Shown here one piece after another: positions 899 through 6,324 of a stretch of 64,000 bases of DNA (positions are counted from its first letter, which is position 1; each line of letters starts with the position of its first letter). Source of the DNA: an uncultured Paracoccaceae bacterium (GTDB taxonomy: Bacteria > Pseudomonadota > Alphaproteobacteria > Rhodobacterales > Rhodobacteraceae). The position numbers and the translations under genes were made by a program. Below the pieces are notes generated by a model. The model was not told where the DNA came from, did no database searches, and saw only the letters and a list, made by a program, of their open reading frames with translations. The stretch covers positions 1,364,001-1,428,000 of the forward strand of contig CANLVP010000001.1 of assembly GCA_947494675.1 (NCBI GenBank). The letters are read 5' to 3'.

Positions 899-1837
899 TT
901 GATAACAAAGGCCGTCATTCTGAACGCACCGGGTGAACTGGGTGTCGAATCGGTGACCCTGACCGCGCCAGCGCGCGGCGATATTGTTGTCCGGGTTCGC
1001 CACTCCGGTATTTCCACAGGCACCGAAAAACTGTTCTGGACCGGTGAGATGCCGCCGTTCCCCGGCATGGGCTACCCTCTGATCCCCGGCTACGAGGCCG
1101 CAGGCGAAGTGGTCGAAGCTGGCCCCGACAGCGGTTTCCGCGTGGGCGAACATGTCTTTGTCCCCGGTGCCAATTGCTACGACGGTGCCTTTGGCCTTTT
1201 TGGGGCCGCGTCGCACACCATCGTGACCCCCGCATCTCGTGTCACCCGCATCGACCGGGGCCTTGGCGCCTCCGGCGCACTGCTGGCGCTGGCCGCGACC
1301 GCGCGTCATGCGATGGCGGGTCCGGGCAAGGCCGTGCCGGACCTGATCATCGGCCACGGTGTTCTGGGCCGTCTCTTGGCGCGTCTGACCCTCGCCTCTG
1401 GTGCGCCCGCGCCCACGGTCTGGGAAATTGATCCGGCCCGTATGGATGGCGCGACGGGTTATGAAGTGACCACCCCCGAAGCCGACGAACGCCGCGACTA
1501 CGCCAATATCTACGACGCCTCTGGCCGCGCCGATCTGCTGAATGACCTTGTCGGTCGCCTCGCCCGTGGCGGCGAGATTGTGCTCGCAGGGTTCTACACC
1601 CAGCCGCTGCAATTCGCCTTCCCGCCCGCCTTTATGAAAGAGGCGCGGCTGCGCGTCTCTGCCGAATGGCAGCCCGACGACATGACCGCCACCAAGGCGC
1701 TCGTGGAAAGTGGCGTGCTGCGGCTGGACGATCTGATCTCTGAAACACGGCCCGCTGCGGATGCGGCGGCGGCCTATACCACGGCCTTTACCGATCCGAA
1801 CTGCCTGAAAATGATCCTGAATTGGAGCGATCTATGA
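899..1837 (+). CDS. bchC: 2-desacetyl-2-hydroxyethyl bacteriochlorophyllide a dehydrogenase
   Basis: Zn-dependent dehydrogenase-like sequence ([18 protein letters not shown]), position before bchX; TTG start at 899 with purine-rich leader. Confidence 0.92.
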
Positions 1838-2835
1838 AAGACGAAATCCCGAACCTGAAGGATTACGACAAGACGCTCCGGGATGAGGCGGCAGAACCCT
1901 CGCTTGAGGTGCCGCAGGGCGAGCCCACCTCCAAAACCCAGATCATCGCGATCTATGGCAAGGGCGGCATCGGCAAATCGTTCACGCTGGCCAACCTCAG
2001 CCACATGATGGCCGAAATGGGCAAGCGCGTGCTGTTGATCGGCTGCGATCCGAAATCCGACACCACCAGCCTGCTCTTTGGCGGCAAGGCCTGCCCCACG
2101 ATCATCGAAACCTCCGCCAAAAAGAAACTCGCAGGCGAAGAAGTCGCGATTGGCGACGTCTGCTTTAAGCGCGGCGGTGTCTTCGCGATGGAACTTGGCG
2201 GGCCAGAGGTCGGCCGTGGTTGCGGTGGGCGTGGCATCATCCACGGGTTCGAACTCCTCGAAAAGCTCGGCTTTCATGACTGGGACTTTGACTATGTCCT
2301 GCTCGATTTCCTCGGTGACGTGGTCTGCGGCGGCTTTGGCCTGCCAATTGCCCGTGACATGGCGCAAAAGGTGATCCTCGTTGGCTCAAATGACCTGCAA
2401 TCGCTCTATGTGGCTAACAATGTTTGCTCGGCCGTCGAATACTTCCGCAAGCTCGGTGGGAATGTGGGTGTGGCTGGGCTCGTCATCAATAAAGATGACG
2501 GAACTGGGGAGGCGCAGGCCTTTGCCGAGGCCGTCGACATTCCGATCCTCGCCGCCATACCCCAAGACGACGACCTGCGCAAAAAATCCGCCAACTACCA
2601 AATCGTAGGCACCTCAGAAAGCCAATGGGGCGCGATGTTCGCAGGTCTGGCAGAGGCCGTCGCAGGCGCACCCCCCGTGCAGCCCGCACCCTTGGATCAG
2701 GACGGTTTGCTGGCGCTCTTTGATGCCGAGGACACCGGCGCGAACTTTGTGCTGACCCCCGCCACTGACACCGACATGCGCGGCAAAAACGCCAAGCCCA
2801 AGGAAAGCCTTGAGGTGATCTATGACGACGCATGA
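1834..2835 (+). CDS. bchX: Chlorophyllide a reductase iron protein subunit X
   Basis: P-loop YGKGGIGKS, NifH/BchL-like; ATG at 1834 preferred over ORF-track start 1822. Confidence 0.95.
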
Positions 2836-2971
2836 TCGCATCAAACGGGCCATCAGCGATGCCAAGGTACTGCAGGACGAAGCGGTCGACATCAAAAAGG
2901 TCCTGACGGATTTCGTGGATGAGGTGAAAGCAGGGAAGTCGCCCGCACCCGCGCCAAAGGATCCGTCATGA
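2822..2971 (+). CDS. Uncharacterised 49-aa [52 protein letters not shown] between bchX and bchY
   Basis: ATG preceded by GAGGTGA (2812-2818); overlaps bchX end by 14 nt and bchY start by ATGA; absent from supplied ORF track because short. Confidence 0.6.
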   Translation: MTTHDRIKRAISDAKVLQDEAVDIKKVLTDFVDEVKAGKSPAPAPKDPS

Positions 2972-4566
2972 CTGGTCAACCCCCACAGCGCGAAGGCTTT
3001 GAGGTCGGCTATGACGCCGCTGGTGAGGTTGAAGTGATCCGCGGTGCCGAACGCCCCGCCGCTGATATGACCGCGACCGAGGCCACCGCGCTGGAAGGCG
3101 GATGCACCGCCGGTGCCGCCACGATGGAAGCTGCCGCCCGTGCCGCTGGCAAATCCGACATCCTTGACCAATACGCCGCCGACTACCCCCAAGGCCCCCA
3201 CGATCAACCGCAGTCTATGTGCCCCGCATTTGGGTCGCTGCGCGTCGGTCTGCGGATGAAACGCGTAGCCACCGTGCTCTCCGGTTCAGCCTGCTGCGTC
3301 TACGGCCTGACTTTCGTGTCACACTTCTACGGCGCGCGCCGCTCTGTCGGCTATGTGCCGTTCAATTCTGAAACGCTGGTCACCGGCAAACTGTTCGAGG
3401 ATATCCGCGAAAGCGTCCACGACATGGCCGACCCCGACCGCTATGACGCCATCGTCGTCACCAACCTCTGCGTGCCAACCGCATCCGGCGTGCCGCTGCG
3501 CTTGCTGCCCAAGGAAATCAACGGCGTCCGCATCGTCGGTATCGACGTCCCCGGATTTGGCATACCTACCCACGCCGAGGCCAAGGATGTCCTCGCCGGT
3601 GCCATGCTCGCCTATGCAAGGGAAGAGGCCGCCGCTGGCCCCGTCGCACGCCCCGTGTCCGCCAAGGACGACCGCCCTGCCGTCGCGCTGATGGGAGAGA
3701 TGTTCCCCGCCGACCCGATGATGATTGGTGCGATGTTGGGGCCGATGGGCCTTGCCGCCGGACCCGTGGTGCCGACCCGCGAATGGCGCGAACTTTATGC
3801 CGCTCTCGATTGCGGCGTCGCCGCTGCAATCCACCCGTTCTACACCGCCTCGGTGCGCGAATTTCAGGCCGCTGGCCGCAAGGTCGTGGGCTCTGCCCCC
3901 GTCGGCTATGACGGCACTGCTGCATGGCTCGCCGCCATTGGTGACGCCTACAACGTCGCCCCTGACCAGATCGCTGCGGCGCAAAACGCCTTCCTGCCCG
4001 CGATCCAGGGCGCATTGGCCGGGTCCAAGATCGACGGCACCATCACGCTGTCAGGCTACGAAGGCTCCGAACTCCTCGTCGCGCGCCTGCTGATCGAAAG
4101 CGGCGCAACCGTGCCTTACGTCGGCACCGCCTGCCCGAAAACACCATGGTCCGCAGACGATGCTGCATGGCTTGAAGCCAAGGGTGTGAAGGTCAAATTT
4201 CGCGCCAGTCTTGAGGATGATCTCTCCGCCATGGAAGGCGTCAAACCCGACCTCGCCATCGGCACCACACCCGTGGTCCAGCGCGGCAAGGAACTCGGCA
4301 TCCCGTCGCTCTATTTCACCAACCTGATCTCGGCCCGTCCGCTGATGGGCCCCGCCGGGGCAGGTAGCCTGCAACAGGTGGTGAATGCCGCGATCAACGG
4401 GGCCGAGAAAATGGGCAAGATGAAGGCCTTCTTCGAAGGCGTTGGCCACGACGATACCGCCGGTGTCTGGGAAAGCGCGCCCAACCTGCGCCCCGACTTC
4501 CGCGCCCAGCACCAGAAGAAGCTGGACAAACAAAAGAGGGCCGCAGAAGCGGCGGCAATGATATGA
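2968..4566 (+). CDS. bchY: Chlorophyllide a reductase subunit Y
   Basis: BchY-like sequence ([18 protein letters not shown]...[18 protein letters not shown]), nitrogenase-like, operon position. Confidence 0.95.
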
Positions 4567-4569
4567 CCC

Positions 4570-4590
4570 CGAATATTCGTCGAATATTCG
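4570..4590. repeat. Palindromic repeat CGAATATTCGTCGAATATTCG
   Basis: Two GAATATTC palindromes separated by GTC in the bchY-bchZ gap. Confidence 0.6.
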
Positions 4591-4598
4591 CCACCCCC

Positions 4599-4617
4599 AA
4601 ATCTTCGACGAAGATTT
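4599..4617. repeat. Perfect 8-bp-arm inverted repeat AAATCTTC-GAC-GAAGATTT
   Basis: Seen directly in bchY-bchZ intergenic gap. Confidence 0.7.
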
Positions 4618-4642
4618 ACCCCCGCCAGTCGGAGGGTGCGCT

Positions 4643-6103
4643 ATGCTGATCACCGATCACGACCGTGCGGGCGGATATTGGGGGGCGGTCTATGCCTTCT
4701 GCGCCGTCAAAGGCCTGCAAGTGGTAATCGACGGCCCCGTCGGCTGCGAAAACCTGCCCGTGACATCCGTCTTGCACTATACCGACGGATTGCCCCCGCA
4801 TGAGCTGCCCATTGTCGTCACTGGCCTCGGCGAAACCGAGATGGGCGAAGGCACCGAAGAGGCGATGAAACGCGCGTGGAACGTGCTTGATCCCGCCTTG
4901 CCTGCCGTGGTCGTCACCGGCTCCATCGCTGAGATGATCGGCGGCGGCGTGACCCCGCAAGGCACAAACATCCAGCGCTTCCTGCCGCGCACCATTGATG
5001 AGGATCAATGGGAATGCGCCGACCGCGCGATGACGTGGATCTTCACCGAATTTGGCATGACCAAGGGCCGTATGCCGCCCGAGAAGAAACGCGAAGAGGG
5101 TGCCGCCCCCCGCGTCAATATTCTTGGGCCGATGTATGGCACCTTCAACATGCCCTCCGACCTTGCCGAAATCCGCCGTCTGGTTGAGGGCATCGGGGCA
5201 GAGGTGAACATGGTCATGCCGCTGGGTGCCCATCTGGCCGAAATGCGCAATCTGGTGAACGCTGACGTCAACATCTGCATGTATCGCGAATTTGGCCGCG
5301 GCCTCGCCGAATGCCTTGGCAAACCCTACCTGCAGGCCCCCTTTGGCATCGACAGCACCACGAAATTCTTACGCAAGCTGGGTGAGCTGACGGGCCTCGA
5401 CCCCGAACCCTTTATCGAGCGCGAAAAGCACTCGACCATCAAACCCGTCTGGGATCTCTGGCGGTCGGTCACGCAGGATTTCTTTGCCACCGCTGAATTC
5501 GGCATCGTGGCGAATGAAACCTACGCCCGTGGCATCCGCCATTACCTAGAGGGCGATCTGGGCTTTCCTTGCGCCTTTGCCGTTGCGCGCTGTCGCGGGG
5601 CCAAGACCAATAACGACGAAGTGCGCCAGTTGGTGCACACCAAAAAACCGCTCGTGCTGATGGGGTCGATCAACGAAAAGATGTATCTGGCGGAAACCAA
5701 GGCGGGCCACGGACCCAGCCCCAGTTTCATCCCCGCCAGCTTTCCCGGTGCCGCCATCAGGCGCGCCACAGGCACGCCGTTCATGGGCTACGCCGGGGCG
5801 ACTTACGTTCTGCAAGAGGTCTGCAATGGCCTTTTCGACAGCCTCTTTCACATTCTGCCGCTGGCCACCGACATGGATGCCACCGACGCCACGCTCACGC
5901 CCCTGCGGCGCGACATGCCGTGGGACGCAGATGCCCAAGCCAAACTGGATGAGATCGTGGCAACACACCCGATCCTCACCCGTATTTCAGCAGCGAAAAC
6001 GCTGCGGGACGCCGCTGAACGCGCGGCCCTCGACGCCGGTTCTGACCGGGTCGCCCTTGCGACCGTCGAGACACTTCAATCATCATCGGGAGGACAGAAA
6101 TGA
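4643..6103 (+). CDS. bchZ: Chlorophyllide a reductase subunit Z
   Basis: BchZ-like sequence ([37 protein letters not shown]), follows bchY; SD GGAGGG. Confidence 0.95.
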
Positions 6104-6324
6104 CAGATTTCACCAGCGACGTAAGCGTGCCACGCACACGCACCGCACCGCCCAAACGCGAATATTATGTCTACTTCGCCGTCATCTTTCTGGCGACCTT
6201 GCCGCTGGCCATCCTGACATGGGCGCTCACCGCCGCACGTCAGATGAAATTGCCGCCCAAAGGCCCCTTTGCCAAGGCCTGGACACAGGCCCGCATCATC
6301 ACGCCGCAGATCTTCAGTGCTTGA
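6100..6324 (+). CDS. pufQ: PufQ, bacteriochlorophyll carrier/assembly factor
   Basis: 74 aa single-TM protein, ATGA overlap with bchZ, precedes pufB. Confidence 0.85.

Follow-up and report, generated by a model that had tools for sequence, protein, structure and literature searches.

A small selected gene at the bchX-bchY junction of a Paracoccaceae bacterium, a possible coupled accessory of chlorophyllide a reductase

Introduction

Chlorophyllide a reductase (COR) commits chlorophyllide to the synthesis of bacteriochlorophyll and has been studied as a three-protein system. In the stretch of DNA analysed here (the window, 64,000 nucleotides from an uncultured Paracoccaceae bacterium), Pfam and NCBIfam matches place the genes of this neighbourhood in the order bchC, bchX, bchY, bchZ and pufQ, and an open reading frame (ORF) of 49 codons is found between bchX and bchY. 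Is this ORF a genuine gene and, if so, what does its product do between two subunits of COR? No description of a small gene at the bchX-bchY junction was found in the open literature searched, and a survey of Rhodobacteraceae photosynthesis clusters presents bchX and bchY of D. shibae as consecutive loci (PMC6052148).

The ORF and its two neighbours

The features on which the ORF had originally been predicted, namely a strong Shine-Dalgarno (SD) sequence, a 14-nt overlap with bchX and an ATGA shared with bchY, were all confirmed on the sequence (Table 1), and the 49-residue product then proposed is the exact translation of positions 2822-2971. The ATG of the small ORF lies at 2822, upstream of the bchX stop codon (2833-2835), and its own stop (2969-2971) shares the ATGA with the bchY start codon (2968-2970). 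SDs of the GGAGGT/GAGGTGA type were found again at the equivalent place in relatives, and the AAAGGAT that serves bchY codes for a conserved Lys-Asp pair of the small ORF. The window ORF therefore presents the whole layout of a coupled small gene: an SD, an overlap with both neighbours and a conserved frame. This same compactness limits what its ends can tell: the initial MTT is imposed by the sequence shared with bchX, and the final KDPS coincides with the bchY SD and the ATGA, so the conservation of the ends is uninformative about the peptide and only codons ~6-45 can be used for that purpose.

Table 1. Features of the bchX-bchY junction in the window.
Feature	Position	Strand	Basis
bchX, chlorophyllide a reductase iron protein	1834..2835	+	TIGR02016, 441 bits
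SD of the small ORF, GAGGTGAT, within bchX codons	2812..2819	+	read from sequence
Small ORF (49 aa, stop included)	2822..2971	+	translation, 5/6 congeneric species, dN/dS, AF2
Codons 6-30 of the small ORF, purifying selection	2837..2911	+	dN/dS; pooled Fisher p ~5e-8
SD of bchY, AAAGGAT, within the last codons of the small ORF	2956..2962	+	read from sequence
ATGA overlap, small-ORF stop/bchY start	2968..2971	+	read from sequence
bchY, chlorophyllide a reductase subunit Y	2968..4566	+	TIGR02015, 732 bits

The BchZ encoded in the window matches TIGR02014 with 828 bits. The gap that separates its gene from bchY (4567-4620) contains two perfect palindromes, GAATATTCG-T-CGAATATTC followed by AAATCTTCG-A-CGAAGATTT; the core of the first has just one further copy in the genome and that of the second has no other copy. 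They could possibly constitute an mRNA processing or attenuation element.

Conservation and selection within the genus

The comparison within the genus comprised six genomes with bchY, and in five of the six species the 49-codon ORF is kept without any indel. No stop or frameshift, which the original prediction had proposed to look for in close relatives, was present in these five. The window peptide is 94% identical to two of its four congeneric homologues and 59-61% identical to the other two, and among the more distant congeneric species the identity of the core DNA is just 0.60-0.74. The sixth genome (G302, locus L007) carries at the equivalent position an unrelated ORF, which belongs to the FA type described below. 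The bchX of L007 clusters with that of other genera on the bchX tree, which may reflect a transfer or a broad genus.

The dN/dS estimate, also suggested at the outset, located purifying selection in the first part of the peptide. Outside the overlaps, the small ORF shows a dN/dS of ~0.2 where dS is measurable, versus 0.02-0.05 for bchX and bchY. In codons 6-30 the ratio is 0.10-0.20, with pS of 0.23-0.87, and in codons 31-43, corresponding to the Pro/Ala tail, it rises to 0.6-1.8 where measurable, which is near neutral. When two independent pairs were pooled, the core had accumulated 10 non-synonymous and 18 synonymous changes, yielding a Fisher p of ~5e-8 that is approximate, as sites were taken as independent and N and S were back-calculated. 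The high dS in codons 6-30 indicates that the constraint acts on the protein and not on the RNA. It is highly likely, therefore, that the window ORF encodes a selected protein.

Predicted structure and relatives of the peptide

AlphaFold2 models of the window peptide and of one relative consist of a single helix spanning residues 3-36 and a loose tail, with a mean pLDDT of 87 that reaches 94-96 across residues 1-30; the disordered Pro/Ala tail comprises residues 37-49. In three distinct sequences, the best hydrophobic periodicity was 103-104 degrees, which corresponds to a heptad repeat, and the a/d positions (IAALV and ALIF) were hydrophobic throughout. The helix and its heptad periodicity back the earlier description of the product as an amphipathic helix with a Pro/Ala tail. 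The peptide contains no Cys.

Homology searches returned no Pfam or NCBIfam family at E<=0.01 and no PDB relative (the PDB matches to NDUFV2 of complex I, with E ~0.8-1.2, were at chance level and were discarded), in agreement with the suspicion that such a short ORF would escape annotation, as it is absent from these current family libraries. Relatives of the window peptide could not be detected in other Rhodobacteraceae genera. The comparison with other Rhodobacteraceae junctions, proposed at the outset, consequently showed conservation only within the genus, where five of six species keep the ORF.

The junction across the Rhodobacteraceae

A total of 216 bchX-bchY junctions, nearly all of them from Rhodobacteraceae, were gathered, and the cross-genus genome sample provided 135 usable Rhodobacteraceae junctions. 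Of these 135, 77 have a small ORF (>=18 aa) that begins at the equivalent site, and the remaining 58 lack such an ORF and mostly have the BchY start at or near that site. By class, the 135 junctions were 43 direct, 38 FB, 22 FC and 17 FA; a further 8 had no ORF close to the site, and 7 had a mini-ORF. FA and FB are names coined here for two recurrent patterns, ...ARPEQIRRLLxDI... and MFDLDxLAxxDxAL..., respectively. The remaining peptides, which are varied, mostly look helical by eye and include the window family, were left in a residual class, FC, and do not constitute one family. None of the 16 usable junctions of other alphaproteobacterial families had a small ORF of this size (>=18 aa); L250, counted among these 16, is nested within the Rhodobacteraceae on the bchX tree.

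The geometry of the slot is largely constant. In 118 of 124 cases the small ORF starts at -13 or -7 nt relative to the last bchX base, it overlaps bchY by 4 nt in 101 of the 124, and in 41 of 68 direct genomes it is BchY that starts at -13 or -7, with an N-terminus (REGFEVGYD or close) that matches that of the window BchY. Given this shared start and common N-terminus, the comparison of sequences indicates that one ribosome-loading site serves both states, the occupied and the direct one differing by the almost precise insertion or removal of the small gene that follows it. Deletion between ATGAC repeats is a possible route to the direct state that found no support as a general mechanism, the shared start sequence being mostly 3-4 nt. 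The presence or absence of a slot ORF changes ~45 times on the bchX tree, a figure to be taken as an upper-end guess in which gain and loss are not separated, because the resolution of the tree is low and the transfer of photosynthesis clusters between Rhodobacteraceae is known (PMC6052148). Tandem pairs of coupled small ORFs were observed in three genomes, an FC-like ORF being followed by an FB (L038, L211) or an FA (L194). At another locus, L163, the tblastn frame of bchX ends early and the C-terminus KSLEVVYDEA resumes further on in a different frame, which reads as a frameshift in the 3' end of this bchX or as an error of assembly there.

Several lines of evidence indicate, at the level of sequence, that FA and FB are real families, seen only at the bchX-bchY junction. 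In leave-one-out HMM searches from which the overlap residues had been removed, 29/29 FA and 47/55 FB members beat all 100 shuffles. In whole-genome searches, the strong FA or FB matches from every genome whose bchY could be located sat at the bchX-bchY junction, and the weaker matches found elsewhere scored below most real members. Finally, pooled close pairs gave a dN/dS of 0.50 for FA (p 2e-7) and 0.45 for FB (p 5e-9). The shortest FB occupants have ~21-26 aa. The window peptide shows no detectable relationship with FA, FB or other slot occupants: its clade is missing from the FA HMM hits and its best pairwise score lies within shuffles, and it did not rise above shuffles against the MFDLDxLAxxDxAL profile. 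A homology to FA through a two-residue deletion, suggested by eye, did not exceed shuffles either.

Some occupants carry Cys residues in recognizable arrangements. A Cys-Pro motif is present in 13 of the 17 long FB peptides (>=40 aa), where 2.0 would be expected and the maximum of 2000 shuffles was 6 (loci L027, L070, L088, L154, L157, L165, L170, L185, L190, L195, L208, L213 and L218), mostly as CPF, CPV or CPL and 8-16 residues from the C-terminus. CP motifs occur in haem-regulated proteins, and by analogy the motif suggests tetrapyrrole or metal binding. The FA peptides of L194, L171, L176 and L167 start with M(TM)C[DE]xC, and three of them have an additional Cys (MCDDCALTDLDC..., MCDECRLHGVDC...), a set of putative ligands that might possibly hold a metal or an Fe-S centre. 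Weak Pfam matches among the other slot peptides, such as those to synaptobrevin and Exonuc_VII_S, each involved one or two members and were dismissed as coiled-coil noise.

The slot has not gone wholly unrecorded. The original claim that the gene was undescribed holds for the window peptide within the open literature, but the slot ORFs of four other genomes are already present in RefSeq as 'hypothetical protein', namely WP_158308178.1 (Roseobacter litoralis), WP_169642524.1 (R. ponti), WP_076630660.1 (Tateyamaria omphalii) and WP_259993782.1 (Sulfitobacter sp. S190). These proteins have 57-63 aa, start at -13 from the last bchX base and overlap bchY by 4 nt. No resemblance between them and the window peptide was seen, and the other members of the mixed class scored within shuffles. 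In Thalassococcus, RefSeq skips one candidate slot ORF. In summary, the window ORF is a real small gene, selected and restricted to one lineage, and the slot that it occupies is common within the Rhodobacteraceae.

A coupled accessory of chlorophyllide a reductase?

The best explanation of these observations is that the small protein is a non-essential accessory of COR, translationally coupled to bchY, a reading to which we assign a probability of about 0.45; that the protein serves COR at all we regard as an even bet. In such a model, ribosomes would load at the strong SD in the end of bchX and translate the 49-aa protein, in which a disordered tail follows one long amphipathic helix whose hydrophobic residues recur at heptad spacing. 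Termination at the ATGA would be followed by restart on bchY, aided by the SD within the small ORF, and the helix would be made beside BchY and in proportion to it. There it might bind a hydrophobic groove of nascent BchY, or of BchYZ, favouring folding, assembly or stability. The ORF, its overlaps, the selection on its helix and the slot pattern are observed, and its translation, its coupling, BchY or COR as its partner and a role in assembly are inferred. The junction itself would be a tolerant slot that may hold an FA, an FB or a lineage-specific helix, or two small ORFs in tandem; where it is empty, BchY often starts on the SD that otherwise serves the small ORF. The strong FA and FB matches tie the slot to COR and, together with the selection on the helix, make a COR accessory the best reading. 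The typical arrangement for termination and reinitiation is an ATGA pair with an SD inside the upstream ORF, and genes that overlap in pairs encode subunits of heteromeric complexes more often than expected (PMC10666635). A broader and more tentative proposal, which we hold to be rather doubtful, is that COR has, across the Rhodobacteraceae, a class of small exchangeable accessory proteins that are encoded nowhere but between bchX and bchY and help or tune the enzyme, unrelated helices having taken one another's place in this role and that of the window representing the version of one genus.

Counter-evidence comes from the many relatives that possess bchXYZ and no small ORF at all, which, together with the ~45 changes, indicates that the function is dispensable or replaceable. 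Bacteriochlorophyll a has been made in E. coli from 18 genes, including bchX, bchY and bchZ of R. sphaeroides (PMC10443036), and for Rhodobacter COR activity in vitro has been obtained with purified BchX plus BchYZ (PMC4432870). In view of the ORF-free species, this reconstitution and the in vitro activity, an essential COR subunit is unlikely.

The small protein could also be unrelated to COR and merely co-expressed with the bch genes, for instance as a PufQ-like regulator of tetrapyrrole flux or photosystem assembly. The operon runs on to pufQ (PF05398), whose small product is reported to act on ferrochelatase (PMC5725709); unrelated peptides occupy one slot, and the CP motifs of the long FB peptides are of the haem-regulated kind. 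We consider this somewhat unlikely, as the strong FA and FB matches are found at the bchX-bchY junction and not elsewhere in the photosynthesis cluster, and the window peptide lacks Cys.

Alternatively, the ORF might simply pass ribosomes from bchX to bchY and set the BchX:BchY ratio, the peptide being discarded. The overlaps with both neighbours, each accompanied by an SD, the frequent BchY start at -13 or -7 in ORF-free genomes, the wide divergence of peptides between lineages and FB occupants of barely ~21-26 aa would all fit. Nevertheless, purifying selection on codons 6-30, protein motifs of FA and FB that are recognizable across genera with pooled dN/dS of ~0.5 and 0.45, and tandem small ORFs, which would be superfluous, speak against it, and we judge it unlikely. 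The original prediction had offered an accessory protein or a coupling leader for BchY, and the two prove compatible: selection on the helix favours a protein and the overlaps favour a ribosome relay, which is best read as a side effect or a second function of the accessory protein.

That the frame is open by chance is very improbable: GC-rich DNA often contains open frames as long as this one, but its exact length in five species without indels, the low dN/dS, the SDs and overlaps at both ends and the recurrence of the slot contradict it. Scarcely credible is a piece split off the N-terminus of BchY, which was rejected despite the position directly upstream of bchY and the BchY starts of other genomes at that site, because the BchY that starts at -13 in direct genomes has the N-terminus of the window BchY, which is complete.

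If the accessory reading is true, the COR of many purple and aerobic phototrophs has an unrecognized part. The slot also offers, with its many independent pairs, a natural experiment in how small coupled genes are gained, lost and replaced.

Comparison with known systems

By analogy, the nearest functional parallel would be AnfG/VnfG, the delta subunit of the alternative nitrogenases (anfHDGK), a small alpha-helical protein whose gene lies, like the window ORF, among those of a nitrogenase-type enzyme; the COR protein, if confirmed in its role, would stand beside AnfG as another small helical helper within that group. AnfG, which belongs to the iron nitrogenase, has been proposed to help reductase docking and cofactor insertion (PMC10803253). 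The likeness does not extend to sequence, the window peptide having no AnfG/VnfG match among Pfam and NCBIfam families at E<=0.01, nor to size, since AnfG exceeds 100 aa (it has a Glu109) and the window peptide has 49. The position differs too: the AnfG gene is placed between D and K, whereas that of the window ORF corresponds to between H and D. PufQ is likewise a small protein from the same operon, but PF05398 matches a 74-aa ORF at 6100-6321 and not the window ORF. FA and FB share the slot and the coupling geometry of the window ORF and are not homologous to it by HMM or pairwise comparison. Finally, termination-reinitiation pairs have, as here, a 4-nt overlap and an SD in the upstream ORF (PMC10666635); unlike the usual ATGA pairs, at this junction a tiny ORF separates the genes of two large subunits, and its gain, loss or exchange is frequent.
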